42,867 bases of DNA from Candidatus Woesearchaeota archaeon (GTDB lineage: Archaea > Nanobdellota > Nanobdellia > Woesearchaeales > WJIZ01): assembly GCA_018303125.1 (NCBI GenBank), contig JAGVYS010000038.1, positions 1 through 42,867 on the forward strand. Direction: 5' to 3'. This document shows, piece after piece, positions 869-42,867 of the stretch. Within the stretch, counting starts at the first letter, position 1. The number at the start of each line of letters is the position of its first letter. Made by a program: the position numbers and the translations under genes. The notes below the pieces were generated by a model. It made no database searches. It was not told where the DNA came from and saw only the letters and a program-made list of their open reading frames with translations.

Positions 869-1522
869 TTACCTTACTTCAAATTGGTTTGAGTAGATTC
901 TTCCATTAATAGAATATCCGCCCTCTACTTCTTTAGCCGAACCATCCGTAGCATAATCATAGTAAGCAGGCTTAAGCTCATTAGAGTAGAGTAGATTATG
1001 ATTTGTATCCTGCACCTCAAGGTATAGCCTATATGTTCCTTTATCCCCTACAGCCGGTGTGAATCCTCCTTCAGACGACCAGAAACCCTGCAGCAATATA
1101 TGATACTTTTTACTGCTATCTCCAAATGGACCAAACTGTTCCAGTGAAGCACTGGAATACACTTCTTTGAAATCCTTCCAGACACCGCCATTAAGCTTTT
1201 GTACACCTAACAGGATATATGCAGATTTGGCAGCTCTCTTATTATTCTGTATAAAGCTTATTTCATGAACATCCTTTCCATCGCAGTCATCATCAAGGCC
1301 ATTCCCATCCTCCTCTGGACCTTGAGGTACACAAGTCAGAATAATTCCAGCAATTGCTGAAAAGTCAGCTGCATTAGTTTTTGTGAATTCAAATTCTATA
1401 AAACCATCAACAGAAGCAACTAACTCTTTATCTTGTTCAGTAACATACTTTAGTTTACCATTGACCACAGAAGGAATATCTGTTTTATAAGCGAACTTAA
1501 TTTCTTTTACAGTAACTGTCAT
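869..1522 (-). CDS. Surface-associated protein with an acidic MopE-like motif, overlapping the giant surface gene
   Basis: This 217-residue protein starts with ATG inside an ATGA overlap with the stop of the 1850-residue gene upstream. It has no signal peptide or membrane segment, although its composition is typical of an exported beta-rich protein. Around residues 71-83 it carries DGNGLDDDCDG, which resembles the acidic Cys-containing motif of MopE/PF11617 surface proteins, thought to bind metal. The missing signal peptide and the start within the final codons of a secreted protein suggest two possibilities: a translationally coupled partner, or the true C-terminus of the upstream protein separated by a frameshift. 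The sequence alone does not decide. The function is unknown. Confidence 0.6.
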   Translation of the reverse strand: MTVTVKEIKFAYKTDIPSVVNGKLKYVTEQDKELVASVDGFIEFEFTKTNAADFSAIAGIILTCVPQGPEEDGNGLDDDCDGKDVHEISFIQNNKRAAKSAYILLGVQKLNGGVWKDFKEVYSSASLEQFGPFGDSSKKYHILLQGFWSSEGGFTPAVGDKGTYRLYLEVQDTNHNLLYSNELKPAYYDYATDGSAKEVEGGYSINGRIYSNQFEVR

Positions 1523-4500
1523 CTCATCTTGCCTCCAATAACATAAGTTATGTTGTAAGTCGCATTGACAGGCAGCTTAAACCTGTAAGTGGCTTTCTGC
1601 GAATTAAAGTTATGGAAATCAACAACTAGCGCCTGAGGCCCTGCTGTTGGGTTTGGCCATTCAGTAATCTCATGCTCAGACACCCAACTCTGCCATGTCC
1701 CGTAATCCTTATCCCAACTGTCAATAACCCAGCCGCCCCAGCCAGGTGTGGCAGGAACAGCCCTTACGCCAAACCATGAGCTAATCGGATTGTAGACTAT
1801 ATTATTAAACTCTCCAAGAGCATTAAAGTCTATTACATATCCTTTTGGATTAAGCTTGCATGTATTAGAGCACAAGTCACCATCATTTGTGTTGCGATCA
1901 TCGCACTGCTCATTATCTAAATCTGTGGCATAATCACCATCTTCCCCTGCAAGATCAGTTATGCCGTCCCCACAGAAAGATCCTAGTAGTGAATTGATAG
2001 ACATGTCCGCAAACTTGAAAGACCCTTGAGCCTGAATATAATTGCTTATCTCAGACTCTGGGGTATCTGGCGTATTATACCTCATGACAGCAGTCTGTGC
2101 AAAGACTGTTTTTCCTTTGCATTCATCGGGTATTATTGGTATTCTCCACTCTCCAGATAGCTTAGAGCCGGAAATTATTGGCCCTCCTTCATAATATATC
2201 CCCTGCAACGGAGTATTTTCCCATTGTATCACACATTTTGCTTCAGGGTCCAGTAAAAGTGAACTTAAGGACATTGAGCCAGGTGCAGGGCCTGCAGGAG
2301 GAACCTCAGACGCATCAACCTGTATATGGTTTGCGCCCTCGCAGATTGAGTCAGGACTTATATCTCCCCTTATGTTTATGTACTCACCTATATCAGCATA
2401 CCCGTTCTTGGTTAAAGGATTTTCTTGAAGGTATATGTCCACTCTTGTAATTTCGCACTTTTCCCTGCAGATTTTGAATGTTCCTGAAGGCTCGACAGGA
2501 TTCGACCTAAGTCTCTTGTGGATATCCTCACTCGCTACAGGCGCAGTAGCAGGAGGAGCTAAAAGCAGGAAAGCTTCCTTGCTATAAATATCCTTTCCCT
2601 TGCAGTAATAGGGTACATTGTTAGGCGGCGGGTTATTAGGCACACCCCATATGCCCATAAAATTCCTTAATGCATAATTAAATATCTGATAATATCCTAC
2701 ATAGCCCCTCTGTGTTTTAAACCACATTCCCGGAAGGTTCAACTGATTCCATCGCACCTTGCACTGTCCAGTGCCGTCAGAAGCTGACGCATAGAAATAT
2801 TCTGCATTGTTGCACGCAAGTGCATTCTCCACTCTTCCCTTTATCAAAACCATTTCATTAGGGTTATCAAGGTCAATGCAGCCATTGTCATTCTTGTCTA
2901 TTAGTTCAATGGATGACTCTTCCAAAACACAGCTCGGCACGCCTCCACACTTTATGCCAAAATCTCCTGAAGCATTCACATAATTGCTTACTTCAGTGCC
3001 CGGAACAGTATTCGGGGCAAAAAGCGCTGCCTCCATTGCATAAACTCTTTTTCCACAACATGAACCTGGAGTTTGCGATGGGAACGGCCACATCGGTGCA
3101 CTTATGTCATCTGCGATAAATTGGTTGCCTGAAAATTTCACAGGGGCGCTGATGCCTGTAATCCCACCACTAGTACCGCCATTCCATGTAATCGAGCAAA
3201 ATTCGCTTGAACTGTAGCTGGTTGGGTAATTCCTTGCATTAACTTGTATATTTTTTGCATTGGCGCATGCTACGGCATCAACTACCTCTCCGGTAATCTT
3301 CACCTTGTCCCCATAATTTGCCCCGTCATGGTTATTGTCTATAAGCTCTATGTAGGCACTCTTGAGCGTGCATGGCTTGGCAAATGTAAACTTTCCTCCT
3401 GCATCTGCTGTATTGCTCTGGATATTGCCTAATTCTGGCTCACCACGATACAATCTTCCAATGCCAAAAATCATTGTTTTTCCTTTGCATTCATTTGGCA
3501 CAACAGGTATTTCCCAGTAACCAACAAAAGCTCCCTGGTTTTCATTAAGGCCCCAGCCGTCAAAATGCTGTGGCAGCTCGCTTGGCTTTTTCAGCTCAAT
3601 CCTGGAATACATCCCTTTGTTAATGGATGCATCTCTAAGTGCGATGGTGCAAACTCCGTCAGTGCTTTTAGTTTCCATCAATGCGTAATCAGCCATAGTG
3701 CACTTATCCTTTAATTCCACATGCCCTTTCAGCTTTATCCTGTCTCCCGTCCATCCATATTGAATGATATTGCCATTCTTATCCTGAAGCTCCATTTCAA
3801 TATACTGAAACTTGCATAGCTGTGTGCTGGGCCCTGATCCGCCGAAAGTGATTGAGCCTGTGGCTTTTCCAGTTTCCCTTGTTACATAGTTGCTCACTAC
3901 CTGGCTTGTTAAAGAAGGTGGAGATGCCCTTAATACTGCTATGGTTGCATTTACTGTCTTGTCTGTGCAATCAGCCGGTATGCTGCTTGTAAGTTGCCAT
4001 TCTGTCGTTATTACATTGCTGGTCGCAGATGCAAGATTCAAGTTACTATTGTATATTCCGCTGATTTTGGCCAAATCCCATTGCACGGTGCACTCGCTCT
4101 GGCCTGCAGTGCTACTAAATTCCTTTGCATCAACCTGTATGTGCTTTGCAGCAAGGCAATTCTGTGGGTTATTGACCTCAAAAAGGATGGTTACTTTCTC
4201 ATTCTGGTCAACCTTGCCATTCTTTAATACGGTATCCTGTGAAGGTGAAAAGCTTATGGATGCTTTCTTCAGCTCGCAGGTTTGTGAGGCAAATGTGAAT
4301 AAGCCTGTTGATTGGAAGTAATTGCTGATAACTTTTGTACTACTGAGCAAAGGACCACCGTCCCTAAGGGCTGACAGGCCTGCATAAACTGTCTTTCCGC
4401 TGCATGCAGAAACTATTACAGGAACTTTCCAGTTAAGCCTAACGTAAGCACTGCCATCTGGTATGGTTGAATCTACAGGAATGAAATCTGCCGCACTAAT

Positions 4501-10705: not shown

Positions 10706-11250
10706 TAATCCTTCTCTTGCAGAGCTTCTATATTATGCTCCCAGCTTATTTCGCCAATATGGCCCCTGTAATAGCAAAAAGGCTCAAGATTCTGCCTGGG
10801 ATGAATAAGCCCATTGACATGGACATAAAAATGGAGGATGGCAAGCCAATATTCGGAAAACACAAGACATACAGGGGAGTAGCGGTTGGGATATTGATGG
10901 GCATAGTTGTTGCTTTTGTGCAATGGCTTTTGTCTCCCCTCATTGGAAGCGTGAGCATCTTAGATTATTCTTCCTATGTATTAATAGGCTTCCTTATGGG
11001 TTCTGGTGCCATAATAGGGGATATGGTAAAGAGCTTTGCAAAGAGAAGATGCGGAATAATGCCAGGCCACAAGTTCATTCCATTCGACCAAATAGATTTT
11101 ATATTGGGGGCTTATCTGTTCACGCTGCCTTTTTACGGCGATTTTATAACTATGGAGCTATTAGCGAGTTCAATCATAATTACATTTTTCCTGCATATAA
11201 TAGTAAACCATGCCGCTTTTTACCTTGGCATAAGAAATGAAAAATGGTAG
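10702..11250 (+). CDS. carS: CDP-archaeol synthase
   Basis: A 182-residue integral membrane protein of the CarS (former DUF46) family, which makes CDP-archaeol from CTP and unsaturated archaetidic acid. Visible family features are PIDMDIKMEDGKPIFGKHK followed by KTYRGVAVG near residues 36-62, and later RRCGIMPGHKFIPFDQIDF around 115-135, with conserved Gly and acidic residues between membrane helices. Several hydrophobic helices fit the usual topology, and the length is normal for the family. It overlaps both neighbours by a few bases, placing it in the middle of a three-gene lipid head-group operon. It is strong evidence for archaeal ether lipids. Confidence 0.92.
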   Translation: MIILLLQSFYIMLPAYFANMAPVIAKRLKILPGMNKPIDMDIKMEDGKPIFGKHKTYRGVAVGILMGIVVAFVQWLLSPLIGSVSILDYSSYVLIGFLMGSGAIIGDMVKSFAKRRCGIMPGHKFIPFDQIDFILGAYLFTLPFYGDFITMELLASSIIITFFLHIIVNHAAFYLGIRNEKW

Positions 11251-12314
11251 GCAAAAAAGAAACTAGCGGTATAAATTTTGCCAATTGGCTCTCTATAACA
11301 AGGATGCTTCTTGCCCCTATCTTTATGTGGGCGATATTCAGCGGGTATTACATAACCGGCCTTGTGCTTATATTCCTTGCCATATCAACTGATTTCATAG
11401 ATGGCCATATAGCCAGAGCATGGAAAATGCAGACAAGGCTTGGAAAGATGCTTGACCCTATAGCTGATAAGGTTATCATATTTTTCGCTGTCCTTGCCCT
11501 GATGCTTAAGTTCAATTTCCCTATATGGGTGGGCCTTATTATAATATCAAGGGACCTTATCCTGTTTTTCGGCAGCATGGTCTTTCTTTACAGGAACAGG
11601 AAAAAAACTCTTGTTCCCAATCTCCTTGGTAAAATTACTACGTTCATACAGATGACAACTATAGTTATCTATCCTCTTGATACAGGAGAAATAGTAAAGG
11701 TAACTGCAATTTCCTTAACAGTAATTTTTACCTTGCTTTCTGGCTTTGTTTATTTCGTAAAAGGGTACAAGCTGCTCTCAAGGAAACCAAGCATAAAAAT
11801 AAACTTGCCGAACAAGATTACCATAACAAGGATACTTGCCATACCTGTTTTTATTGCAATCATGCTAACCGATTTACCTTATACCCACATACTGGCAGCA
11901 ATAGTATTCATAATGCTGGCCCTTACCGATGCACTCGATGGATACATGGCCAGAAAGAGAAGGCAGATAACCAGCTTCGGAAAATTCATTGACCCGCTTG
12001 CGGACAAGCTGCTTATTTCTGCAGCGCTTATTTTTCTCATAGGAAAAGGAGTAGAGCCTTGGATTGCTTTTGTCATAATAGCGAGGGAATTTGCTGTTAC
12101 GGGCTTAAGGACAGTTGCAATGGCAAGGAACATTGAGCTTCCAGCAAAGATGTCTGGAAAGGTAAAAACAGTCTCTCAGGTAATAGCCATCACAGCTGTA
12201 TTTGTCAAATTGCCCATTTCTACGAATTTGATGGCTATTGCTGTCATCATAACGATATACTCGGGAATAGAATATTTCTGGAACAGCAGGCACCTGCTTA
12301 AGGAGCTTGCATAA
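11244..12314 (+). CDS. Tandem fusion of two CDP-alcohol phosphatidyltransferase domains (PgsA-like)
   Basis: A 356-residue membrane protein with two full copies of the family motif. The first is at residues ~48-72 (DFIDGHIAR...LGKMLDPIAD), the second at ~230-255 (DALDGYMAR...FGKFIDPLAD). Each half is ~170-180 residues with its own helices and its own start-like LPNK/ANWLSITR segment. The second half closely resembles bacterial-type phosphatidylglycerophosphate synthase, so archaetidylglycerophosphate or archaetidylinositol-phosphate synthesis is likely. Both active sites look intact. Usual family members have one domain, so the protein may be an intramolecular version of the normal homodimer or carry two head-group specificities. 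It overlaps carS by 7 nt and converges with the next gene, overlapping 17 nt. Confidence 0.85.
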   Translation: MVGKKETSGINFANWLSITRMLLAPIFMWAIFSGYYITGLVLIFLAISTDFIDGHIARAWKMQTRLGKMLDPIADKVIIFFAVLALMLKFNFPIWVGLIIISRDLILFFGSMVFLYRNRKKTLVPNLLGKITTFIQMTTIVIYPLDTGEIVKVTAISLTVIFTLLSGFVYFVKGYKLLSRKPSIKINLPNKITITRILAIPVFIAIMLTDLPYTHILAAIVFIMLALTDALDGYMARKRRQITSFGKFIDPLADKLLISAALIFLIGKGVEPWIAFVIIAREFAVTGLRTVAMARNIELPAKMSGKVKTVSQVIAITAVFVKLPISTNLMAIAVIITIYSGIEYFWNSRHLLKELA

Positions 12315-22713: not shown

Positions 22714-23379
22714 TTATGCATTAATGCAGTGACCATCCTCTGAGCAACGACCTGGTTTTCCATCAGGTTGCATACAGGTAGCTAGGAAAGGTAGTTGCTC
22801 ATACTGGCAATCAAGCCCGCTTCCACTTTTTTTAACAAAGCAGCCATTGCCAAGTTTATCAGGGCATTGGGTAGGGCAGGATGCTTCGCTAATAAATGAA
22901 AATGCCTTGCCATTTACTTGAAGTGAGCAGCATGCCTGTGACTTTATTTGTTCTGTTCCATCCTCTTTCACATCCTTACATGTATAAGGCTTATTCGGAA
23001 TAAGGTTGGTAGGTACCGGTTCATCATAATCGTAATTACATCCATCTCCGGGATATTTTGAACATGTCGGGGGAGGACACATTCCTCCGGGCTGAGAAAA
23101 TTGACCAGGGTCAATAGAATCACCAGATTCAAAGAGAAAAACAGGACAACACATTTGTGTGGTCTTAACACCGTTCTTATCGATGCAAGAATGAGCGATA
23201 GCTTTAGGTGGAGAGCAGCTACCTTCTTCTTCAGCACAGGAAAGGGGTGTCTTAGAAATGCAGCTCGAGGAAAGAACCACTCTTCTTTTCAATGTACACT
23301 TAAAAATCTGATCATCTTCTTCTTCGCTCATCTCTCCATTAAGAATGTTGCCCTCTATATCTACCTTATAATCATCACA
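22714..23379 (-). pseudogene. 3' portion of the discoidin-domain surface gene, cut off by an IS element
   Basis: This 221-codon frame has no proper start; its upstream end runs into IS200-type sequence, where the continuing open frame is only antisense-like read-through of the element. It encodes a Cys-rich exported-type sequence with several CC pairs (TQMCCPVF, SQACCSLQ), Pro/Gly loops and a final CINA. If the 608-bp element (23381-23988) is removed, the frame joins the upstream ORF exactly: ...YLV, then a rebuilt Ser codon, then CDDYKVDIEG. That makes a continuous protein of about 891 residues. The fragment is probably not translated on its own. Confidence 0.75.
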
Positions 23380-23394
23380 TGACCTCCTCCGCGG

Positions 23395-23422
23395 CCTAAA
23401 GCAGCGGTTTCCGGTGCTTAGG
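23395..23422 (-). repeat. Right-end subterminal hairpin of the IS element
   Basis: The arms cctaaagca (23395-23403) and tgcttagg (23415-23422) pair over 8 bp with one bulged A, with a small inner cgg/ccg pairing in the loop. The hairpin overlaps the tnpA stop codon at 23418. In this family such hairpins are bound by TnpA and guide strand cleavage. Confidence 0.6.
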
Positions 23423-23843
23423 TAAATACTACGCCATAGTGTTCTGCCTGTCCTTGAATGTAAGTAATCATGCTGTTGAGGTCGTTGTATCCGACTGTTA
23501 CTGCGAATCCTCCAGGTGACCAAAAATGTCCTTTCGGGTAGCGGAGCCTGAATTTTTCTTTGACTCGGAACAAGATGTGGGCTGATCGGCCTTTGAGGAG
23601 TTGAAACGCTTCTGAGTCTGTCATGCCGTGTGGCAGCGTGACAAGGGCGTGTACATGGTCGGGCATGACAGCGATGTAATGGATGATGATGCCATGTTCA
23701 TGGGCTGCCTTGCGGATGGCTGCTTCAACAAGATTTTTATTCTCAAGCTTTCTCATCATCTTGTAACGGTACTTTGGGCACCATTCAAGATGCCAGAAAT
23801 TCGTTCCCTTTTTGTGGGAAAAATGGGTTAGGCTTATTTGCAT
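23418..23843 (-). CDS. tnpA: IS200-type TnpA, Y1 HUH single-strand transposase
   Basis: The 141-residue protein has the family's features: FWHLEWCPKYRY near the N-terminus, the HUH metal site MPDHVHALV near residues 59-67, FWSPGGFAVTVG, and the C-terminal helix with the candidate nucleophilic Tyr (MITYIQGQ, about residue 128). It cuts and joins single-stranded DNA through a 5'-phosphotyrosine. ATG 23843 has a good GGAGG site (23852-23857) upstream and is preferred over GTG 23858. The gene looks intact, so the element could be active. Confidence 0.92.
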   Translation of the reverse strand: MQISLTHFSHKKGTNFWHLEWCPKYRYKMMRKLENKNLVEAAIRKAAHEHGIIIHYIAVMPDHVHALVTLPHGMTDSEAFQLLKGRSAHILFRVKEKFRLRYPKGHFWSPGGFAVTVGYNDLNSMITYIQGQAEHYGVVFT

Positions 23844-23984
23844 TTTCTCGTCCTCCACGGACGAGAGCTCACGCTACTTTGATTTGGTAGATTCGTGCGC
23901 AGATACGGCCGCAGGTCACTCCTGCGGCTCTGCCGCACAAAAATTTTTCTAAGAAAACGACCTAAAGGTCGGGGGTTTAAACCC

Positions 23985-25997
23985 TCAGGACACTAAGTAA
24001 GGCTGCAGCCAGCTTAAGTGCCTGTCTATGCCTTCTTCGGAGCTAAATGCCTGACATGACTCTCCACCATAAAAAATGCTTCTTCCCGGGAAGTTCTGGA
24101 GGCAAATCTCCGTAATGTCTGTAAATGTCGAACAAGTCAGGGTAAAATCCCTATCTTCATCAGGCTCTGTTCGAAGATCAGGATCATAATGCCCGTGGGA
24201 AACAACAGTAAATGCTATGGGGTCTTTGCAGGAATATTTTTCACTAAGCTCTTTGATATTGGATTCCCACTCCAAAATAGGAATAACCTCTTTAACATCA
24301 CATCGGAATGAGGGGTCTCTTTGTTTAAGCCCTAATCCTCCGCTAAAGAACTCGTTGCACCATTTCTGGGTTACATTAGCTATGCCTTCTCCTTTACCAT
24401 CAGTTTCAGAATAAAAACCTGCATCTATCTTAGTGTCATAACCGCAGAAACAGCATCTTTGACCATCCTCTTGCAGAATCTTCTGCTTTAGTTGGTCTGC
24501 TCCTCCTCCTGCCGGTGAGCCGCCATTTAACGGGCCGCTGCAGAATGGCTCTTCCCAATCACATAAGGCTCCATTAAGCTGGGCAGCACATTCTCCTTTT
24601 AAGTAGCTCTGGCATGCACTTACCGGTTCTGATTCCCCATCTCCTCCCCCGATAGGGCACAGTGTAGGATCATTACATGCCAAAACAGGGAGCCTGAACC
24701 CAACGCTTACTTCCGTGCCAAATATCCAATGGTCCTCATCAAGAATCTCTTGAACAGTTAGGGAAGGACAATCAAGCCCCCCTGCTGCATTGCCGTGCAC
24801 TCGCACAATTCCTTCAAAAATAAATGGAACACTTCCGACTCCTGTGACACGAACAACCTGTACATCAGAAAGTGATAGAGAAAGGTCATATATACCGGAG
24901 CAGTGTTTGGTTGTTCTCAAGATACCCTTTACATTAAATCTCCCAAAATCTTCCGGCACAGGACTGGCACTCAGCTTCTCAAAACGAAATGCACATTTTC
25001 CAGATTGAGGAAATTGGGGAGCTAATTTAAGGGGGACATTAAAATTAGAGTCTGAAAATGCATCTCCGGAATTTGCTTCCGAAGAAGGTATTAGCTCTTT
25101 GAGTGCAACAGCATATCCGGTAATGCCAAAGCCAGTTGTATCCTTGGAAAGGTAAACTGTTGCCTCTGAATCCTTGCCTTCAGTAAAATACCAGCTTATT
25201 AGCTTTGGCTCATACCCCGGAGCAGCAACATCAGCAAAATATTCCCTTGAATCGAACCTGTTTATTTTTGGAGCCTTTTCTCCATTTTCTCTATATAATG
25301 CAAGTATGCCCTCTTCAAACAGTATAGGATAGTTTTGGAACGTTACCTTTCCATTTCCTGTTTTAACCTCAATTTCTGTCAGAGAATCATCATAAATCCT
25401 TACTTCTGCATTCTTAACCAGCTTTTCTGTATCTGCATCAAGAATAGTTATATGCATTAAACCGGCATTATTCTCAGTTATTGCATCAGCGTTTGAGATT
25501 TTAACCTCGCTTAGGCTGCCATATGTTCCATCAACTCCTTTAATCTCAAATATTCTAACAAATCTTGCCTTGGCCTGAAAATCCTTTCTTGCAAAAATGC
25601 CACCTTTTCCGATTTTCCATTCAGGCACAGCCTTAGACCATTTTTGCCCATCATCAGATATCTCTATTGCAACTGTTAATGGAGCATAGTCCGGATAGAA
25701 ATATGCCTGTATGCTGTTAATGCACTTTATTTCTCCCAAATCAAGGGATATCCAATGAGGAAATTTTGTGTTGTGCCCACCTATCCACATTGTCCCGGTA
25801 TCCCCATCTATTGATTTTAAGGCGGTATATGCCGCACTATACTCTGAATCTGCAGTTGCAAAAACAGGAGCAGATAATGAATACTCGCCGCATCCAATAT
25901 TAGCTATTGCACTGCCTGTTTTTTTGTCAGAATTCATCGCAAGAAAAGGGATAAGAAAGACAATTAGGATAAGGATTATAGCAACATAACTCTTCAT
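23985..25997 (-). CDS. Discoidin (F5/8 type C) domain surface protein, 5' part interrupted by an IS
   Basis: The 670-residue protein starts with a signal peptide or membrane helix (MKSYVAIILILIVFLIPFLA). Residues ~40-170 form an F5/8 type C-like domain (SIDGDTGTMWIGG, PHWISLDLGE, IEISDDGQKW, ARFVRIFEI), a carbohydrate- or surface-binding module. Residues ~180-290 resemble a carboxypeptidase-regulatory beta-sandwich (TILDADTEKLVKNAEVRIYDD). The rest is beta-rich with Cys pairs such as QRCCFCGY. The last codons YLVS* lie at the IS boundary and the stop is supplied by the element. Removing the IS adds 221 residues in frame. A TATA-like box is near 26021-26029. Likely role: envelope adhesion. Confidence 0.82.
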   Translation of the reverse strand: MKSYVAIILILIVFLIPFLAMNSDKKTGSAIANIGCGEYSLSAPVFATADSEYSAAYTALKSIDGDTGTMWIGGHNTKFPHWISLDLGEIKCINSIQAYFYPDYAPLTVAIEISDDGQKWSKAVPEWKIGKGGIFARKDFQAKARFVRIFEIKGVDGTYGSLSEVKISNADAITENNAGLMHITILDADTEKLVKNAEVRIYDDSLTEIEVKTGNGKVTFQNYPILFEEGILALYRENGEKAPKINRFDSREYFADVAAPGYEPKLISWYFTEGKDSEATVYLSKDTTGFGITGYAVALKELIPSSEANSGDAFSDSNFNVPLKLAPQFPQSGKCAFRFEKLSASPVPEDFGRFNVKGILRTTKHCSGIYDLSLSLSDVQVVRVTGVGSVPFIFEGIVRVHGNAAGGLDCPSLTVQEILDEDHWIFGTEVSVGFRLPVLACNDPTLCPIGGGDGESEPVSACQSYLKGECAAQLNGALCDWEEPFCSGPLNGGSPAGGGADQLKQKILQEDGQRCCFCGYDTKIDAGFYSETDGKGEGIANVTQKWCNEFFSGGLGLKQRDPSFRCDVKEVIPILEWESNIKELSEKYSCKDPIAFTVVSHGHYDPDLRTEPDEDRDFTLTCSTFTDITEICLQNFPGRSIFYGGESCQAFSSEEGIDRHLSWLQPYLVS

Positions 25998-42629: not shown

Positions 42630-42867
42630 TCAAAACCCCATTAAACTCTTCTGTTCTCTTGTTTTATTCCAGTGTTTTTCTTGGCATTCTTCTATATAAT
42701 GTTTCATGGTATCTTTTGTTACCATACCAACGCTTCGATAGAAGTGACCTTCACTCCAGAATTTTTTCCCCCAAAGCTTGTGCCGAAACATGTCCCAATG
42801 CCCCTTTCTCATCATATAAGAGCTGAATCCCTTTATTTGCCTGACGAGTTCAATTTCTCCGAGATAC
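42630..42867 (-). CDS. tnpA: IS200/IS605-type TnpA, C-terminal part (runs off the window)
   Basis: The frame is open to the right edge, giving about 78 residues: YLGEIELVRQIKGFSSYMMR, then KGHWDMFRHKLWGKKFWSEGHF, RSVGMVT and TMKHYIEECQEKHW. The KKFWSEGHFYRSVG phrase and the Tyr in KHYIEECQ match the C-terminal catalytic region of Y1 HUH transposases. The HUH histidines would lie beyond the window. It differs from the IS copy at 23381-23988, so two different elements of this family occur here. Confidence 0.88.
   Translation of the reverse strand, partial: YLGEIELVRQIKGFSSYMMRKGHWDMFRHKLWGKKFWSEGHFYRSVGMVTKDTMKHYIEECQEKHWNKTREQKSLMGF

Follow-up and report, generated by a model that had tools for sequence, protein, structure and literature searches.

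In the available text of PMC5934647, IS608 (ISHp608) pairs the left cleavage tetranucleotide TTAC with the guide AAAG and the right cleavage tetranucleotide TCAA with the guide GAAT, keeps a target of the form TTAN in its left flank, and ends on the right with TCAN. The same portion of that source gives the ISDra2 target as the pentanucleotide TTGAT, unlike the tetranucleotide of the element analyzed here. The Salmonella IS200, which consists of tnpA only, has a highly structured 5' tnpA RNA and is described as apparently not mobile in the available part of PMC12594629. The element described below resembles IS608 in its Y1 transposase of the HUH type, its subterminal hairpins, the four-base guides located 5' of these hairpins, and the TTAN and TCAN layout of target and right end; it differs from IS608 in the absence of tnpB and in the last guide/target pair, being TTAG/AAAC on the left and TCAT/GAAA on the right. 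Our literature search found no report of such guide/target covariation in this group, although the review of He et al. (2015) may contain it.

The analyzed window, a 42,867-nt contig of a Candidatus Woesearchaeota archaeon, contains a 614-bp insertion sequence of the IS200 type on the minus strand, with probable ends at 23379-23992 that were delimited by the guide code, a comparison of boundary pairs, and the copies in relatives. The space between these ends is occupied by tnpA alone (23418-23843, minus strand, 141 aa), and no tnpB is present, which places the element in the IS200 group. The TnpA protein matches Y1_Tnp (PF01797) with an E value of 7.9e-22, and its alignment with the solved structure 2xm3 brings together the HUH (HVH) and catalytic tyrosine motifs, mpdhvh and tyiqgq in TnpA against mpdhvh and kyiesq in 2xm3. 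These motifs, together with the hairpins, bear out the assignment to the IS200/IS605 family that had been made in an earlier note on this DNA. The solved relatives of TnpA include the ISHp608 transposase and other Y1 transposases, the closest by sequence being 2xm3, which we take to be, together with 2xma and 2xo6, the transposase of ISDra2. The latter transposon carries tnpB, unlike the element studied here. The insertion may be recent, as the earlier note suggested; its nearest counterpart elsewhere in the genome shows 73% identity along only a part of the sequence. The right edge of the window carries a partial second Y1_Tnp match (42687-42851). A search for TnpA in viral contigs gave nothing useful, and a search of positions 23300-24100 against Rfam returned one chance match only.

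All signals are read on the minus strand, starting with the predicted left cleavage and target tetranucleotide TTAG (23993-23996), which is assigned from the guide code and retained in the flank. The left guide AAAC (23975-23978), identified by the guide alignment of left ends, is followed by the left subterminal hairpin CGACC-TTTA-GGTCG (23958-23971), which was obtained by folding the aligned left ends; in 6 of these 16 ends, both bases of one pair have changed. At the other end, the right guide GAAA (23408-23411) precedes a right subterminal hairpin with a TTTAG loop (23389-23407), recognized by right-end comparison, and the predicted right cleavage tetranucleotide TCAT (23379-23382) forms the final four bases of the element; both the guide and the tetranucleotide were assigned from the right-end guide code. 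The left hairpin is conserved, and the right one is imperfect in this copy.

We further assessed the guide code in relatives from the same order, where element-like DNA was detected in 32 of 287 genomes and a closely related TnpA (E of at most 1e-25) in 38 of 352 genomes. Left ends were aligned by the motif GGGTTT-NNNN-CCCC, in which NNNN is the guide, and by the left hairpin. The last bases of the guide and of the left target tetranucleotide are complementary: the guide AAAC is found with the left-tip word TTAG, AATT and AAAT with TTAA, AATA, AAAA, and GAAA with TTAT, and AAAG with TTAC. Under a strict hairpin filter, the predicted word, TTA plus the complement, was present within 45 nt in 38 of 42 left ends, the code having been formulated after inspection of these same ends. 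The four misses are G001:C7, G199:C68, G223:C47, and G188:C44, the last of which is probably not a left end at all. When each combination of genome and guide was counted once, 28 of 31 ends fit, compared to 15.25 with shuffled guides, and none of 20000 shuffles did as well; an earlier and noisier count, made before the hairpin filter was tightened, gave 30 of 38 unique ends versus 16.0. The subset of guides that do not end in T, which removes the influence of the common word TTAA, fit in all 14 cases (8.71 with shuffling; 16 of 20000 shuffles as good). Four genomes (the genome studied here, G000, as well as G208, G238, and G254) each contain two elements with different guides, and each element lies at its own predicted target. 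Thus, all four possible last target bases occur within one order with matching targets, and the association over relatives is consistent with insertion 3' of a tetranucleotide chosen by the guide.

The right ends follow the same pairing. In 23 of the 24 readable right ends (26 in total), GTCA is followed by the complement of the right guide's final base, with GATA and GAAA found with T and GAAG and AAAG with C; this count was obtained after the distance from guide to cleavage site had been fixed, the leftmost candidate guides having given 19 of 24. The sole exception is a decayed copy in the same genome (G000:C23). With one end counted per genome and pair, 22 of 23 fit versus 13.6 after shuffling, and 1 of 20000 shuffles did as well.

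Short elements of approximately 60 bases provide the best fresh test of the code, although 3 of their 16 copies had been seen beforehand. They consist of a left tip and guide, one hairpin, and the right tail GGAGGAGGTCA, contain no transposase, and resemble REP- or PATE-like non-autonomous elements, the one hairpin apparently being used for both ends. The 16 copies (L118-L133) are distributed over 5 of 352 genomes (G254, G223, G112, G045, and G091), and a control search with the reversed pattern yielded none among the matches listed. Twelve of the 16 copies, as judged by eye, lie beside the word predicted by their guide.

The comparison with relatives bears directly on the ends of the element. 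The earlier note had placed them at GTGTC/CTGAGG and GGTC/ATGTG (a slash marks the cut), giving an element of 608 bp with a GTC-type target. Excision of 23381-23988 indeed leaves an 891-codon frame without a stop (predicted empty-site joint GTGTC/ATGTGATG), and GTC is shared by flank and element. However, 36 boundary pairs were tried and 12 of them proved to be in frame, the one-in-three expectation, so the frame by itself is weak evidence and cannot fix the ends. The copies in G330 and G153, located at unrelated sites, have in common the sequence TGTYYTRA in the 8 bases left of GGGTTTAAAC, and these bases are therefore part of the element, whose left tip TGTCCTGA has the counterparts TGTTTTAA in G330 and TGTTCTAA in G153 at other places. 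On the right, the guide code assigns to the element the AT that follows GGTC, giving the end GGTCAT, because the right guide predicts the base next to GGTCA in all readable ends save the one noted above. Most relatives have a left flank other than GTC, and the comparison with them indicates TTAG as the target here. The occurrence of GTC on both sides is coincidental: the left tip opens with TGTC, and GGTCAT contains the same three bases in its middle. The 608-bp ends are thus largely refuted by the other copies, the kind of evidence that the earlier note had itself named as refuting, and we consider them very unlikely. The ends predicted from those copies, TTAG on the left and TCAT on the right, lie a few bases away from the earlier ones, and the likely element, with the left target TTAG/ and the right end GGTCAT/, spans 23379-23992. 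The joined frame remains open with these ends and encodes 889 residues rather than 891, with the joint ...QPYLGDDYK... and the predicted empty site CTTAG/GTGATGATTATAAG. The cuts would thus fall exactly after TTAG and TCAT. Slightly shifted cleavage points, such as TTAGT/ with GGTC/, are in frame too (890 residues) and compatible with the TTAGT common to three copies, but they fit neither the last-base pairing, at either end, nor the IS608 layout, which makes them highly improbable. The stretch GCGAGCGTAGCGAGC, found left of many relatives, was considered as a target repeat and rejected, since copy pairs from the same genome share GCGAGCGTAGCGAGC up to the predicted target; it presumably belongs to the left tip of these relatives.

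The region between the left end and tnpA (23844-23992) forms a structured tnpA leader that is conserved across genera. In several genomes, the DNA match is limited to the first 100-150 bases of the element, with 75-81% identity, and matches that run through tnpA have 66-74% identity. When the 16 aligned left ends were folded, the left hairpin was joined by another stem of greater length, and 6 of the 27 predicted pairs had both partners changed. The aligned left ends place a hairpin containing a GGAGG ribosome-binding-like motif just 5' of the tnpA start (23846-23866, minus strand), and the GGA of this motif lies in a stem of at least 5 pairs in all 16. The leader resembles the structured 5' tnpA RNA of the Salmonella IS200 as given in the available part of PMC12594629, the resemblance here being known from sequence alone. 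A related copy in another genome (L045, G005:C59, positions 1500-3155) is apparently split within tnpA by approximately 1.27 kb of other DNA, its tnpA pieces lying at 1670-1750 and 3023-3114.

The gene that hosts the element encodes a putative surface protein. The 670 residues encoded by the open reading frame at 23985-25997 (minus strand) include a hydrophobic segment at the N-terminus and, at residues 47-150 (25548-25859, minus strand), an F5/8 type C (discoidin) domain, which matches PF00754 with an E value of 1.1e-13 and a score of 51.9 bits against the cut-off of 28.2, and thus belongs to this family. The structure predicted for this 670-residue part has a mean pLDDT of 38.9. The frame and the boundary analysis assign 23993-25997 (minus strand) to the upstream part of the gene, and the TGA that ends the frame lies two codons into the element, after V-S. 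Beyond the element, the frame 22714-23380 (minus strand) is open over 221 cysteine-rich codons without a credible start of its own; together with the boundary analysis, it delimits the downstream part of the gene at 22714-23378 (minus strand). In the 891-codon numbering, the cysteine content rises from 1.6% before residue 449 to 5.9% in residues 449-670 and 9.5% in residues 671-891. Separate paralogue pieces in the same genome match both halves.

Because the joined frame is open, the cysteine content rises through both halves, and paralogue pieces exist for each of them, we infer that the two halves were formerly one gene, in support of the earlier proposal of a single interrupted gene with an in-frame empty site. 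No homologue spanning the junction was found, the profile matching only the genome studied here among 352 of the order, and two scans of the genome_contigs collection gave no match to the interrupted protein; continuity therefore rests on the frame, the composition, and the piecewise paralogues. The missing homologue would also suit two neighboring genes, the upstream one ending near YLVS and a separate cysteine-rich one following, with the element between them. Such an arrangement would draw further on the one-in-three chance of a frame match and on an in-frame ATG (MSEEEDD) 17 codons into the downstream part. We regard it as unlikely, given that the downstream part shows no export signal of its own despite a richness in cysteine that it shares with the end of the upstream part, that the upstream frame stays open until it enters the element, and that the joined halves contain no intervening stop. 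An assembly chimera without any real insertion appears exceedingly improbable: the assembly consists of 54 contigs that break at another repeat, but the element is single-copy at this identity, leaving the assembler no reason to join here, and both flanks are in one reading frame.

We thus consider it probable that a 614-bp IS200-type element, guide-targeted to TTAG, split one long surface-protein gene. Single-strand transposition would have placed the element 3' of TTAG inside the gene for an exported, cysteine-rich protein with an F5/8 type C domain, cutting the gene after codon 668. The guide AAAC beside the left hairpin would read the target TTAG by DNA pairing, and the guide GAAA beside the right hairpin would do likewise with TCAT, the end of the element itself. 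If excised precisely and without a target duplication, as is typical of the IS200/IS605 family, the element would leave TTA-G/GT-GAT in frame and restore the 889-residue protein; an actual empty site did not come to light. The element is presumably active.

Other pieces of the surface family, located at C40:1-2696 (L022) and at C22:102706-103217 and C22:107642-108174 (L034), all adjoin transposases of other types. Paralogue 2 (C40) has 46% identity across residues 176-448 and breaks off precisely where the terminal repeat (GGGTCTGTCC...GGACAGACCC) of an IS1-like element (C40:3-1078) lies, a label that comes from an InsA-type zinc ribbon scoring 26.2 bits, with the cut-off at 26.1. For paralogue 3 (C22), the break coincides exactly with the repeat CCCAACTTTGACAG belonging to a DDE_Tnp_1 element (L034:1190-2730), and the C-terminal family piece on C22 starts approximately 85 bases away from a different DDE_Tnp_1 gene. 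We looked for the remaining half of paralogue 2 by way of its insertion sequence, whose only second place is the end of C46, a contig end that shares an overlap of exactly 99 bases with the beginning of C40; this route leads to an unrelated gene, and paralogue 2 may therefore be truncated rather than split. The genome contains 19 transposase places when three types are counted: 10 for Y1_Tnp (from 11 hits, one pair being adjacent on C19), 7 for DDE_Tnp_1, and 2 for the IS1-like element, whose copy on C46 may be the C40 copy seen twice. Four of the 19 touch the surface family, which makes up 5.3 kb, or 0.39% of the genome; with the place in the window omitted, 3 of 18 do so, for which the binomial chance, calculated post hoc, is 5e-5.

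Genes that can be lost always gather such elements, and we read the transposon-ridden state of the family as decay of dispensable surface proteins, with selective or reversible silencing as a possible alternative. In a tentative and rather doubtful form of the latter, a lineage-specific surface family would be switched off selectively, and perhaps reversibly, by unrelated transposable elements, forming a preferred or tolerated insertion sink in which the IS200-type copy might slowly turn its gene off and on. Elsewhere in the window, one open reading frame (11244-12314) fuses two phosphatidyltransferase-type domains, the N-terminal half being ClsA-like and the C-terminal half PgsA-like. A search of the genome for archaeal SSU rRNA found none, and its domain of life is suggested by family names such as NcsA and TIGR01177.

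The element itself is a neat but unexceptional example from a known transposon family. Its analysis nevertheless indicated, by reading DNA alone, where a transposon of an uncultured organism probably ends and which word it targets, and its relatives allow the IS608 guide code to be checked in nature across one order. It also draws attention to a surface-protein family in which every located member is damaged beside transposons.
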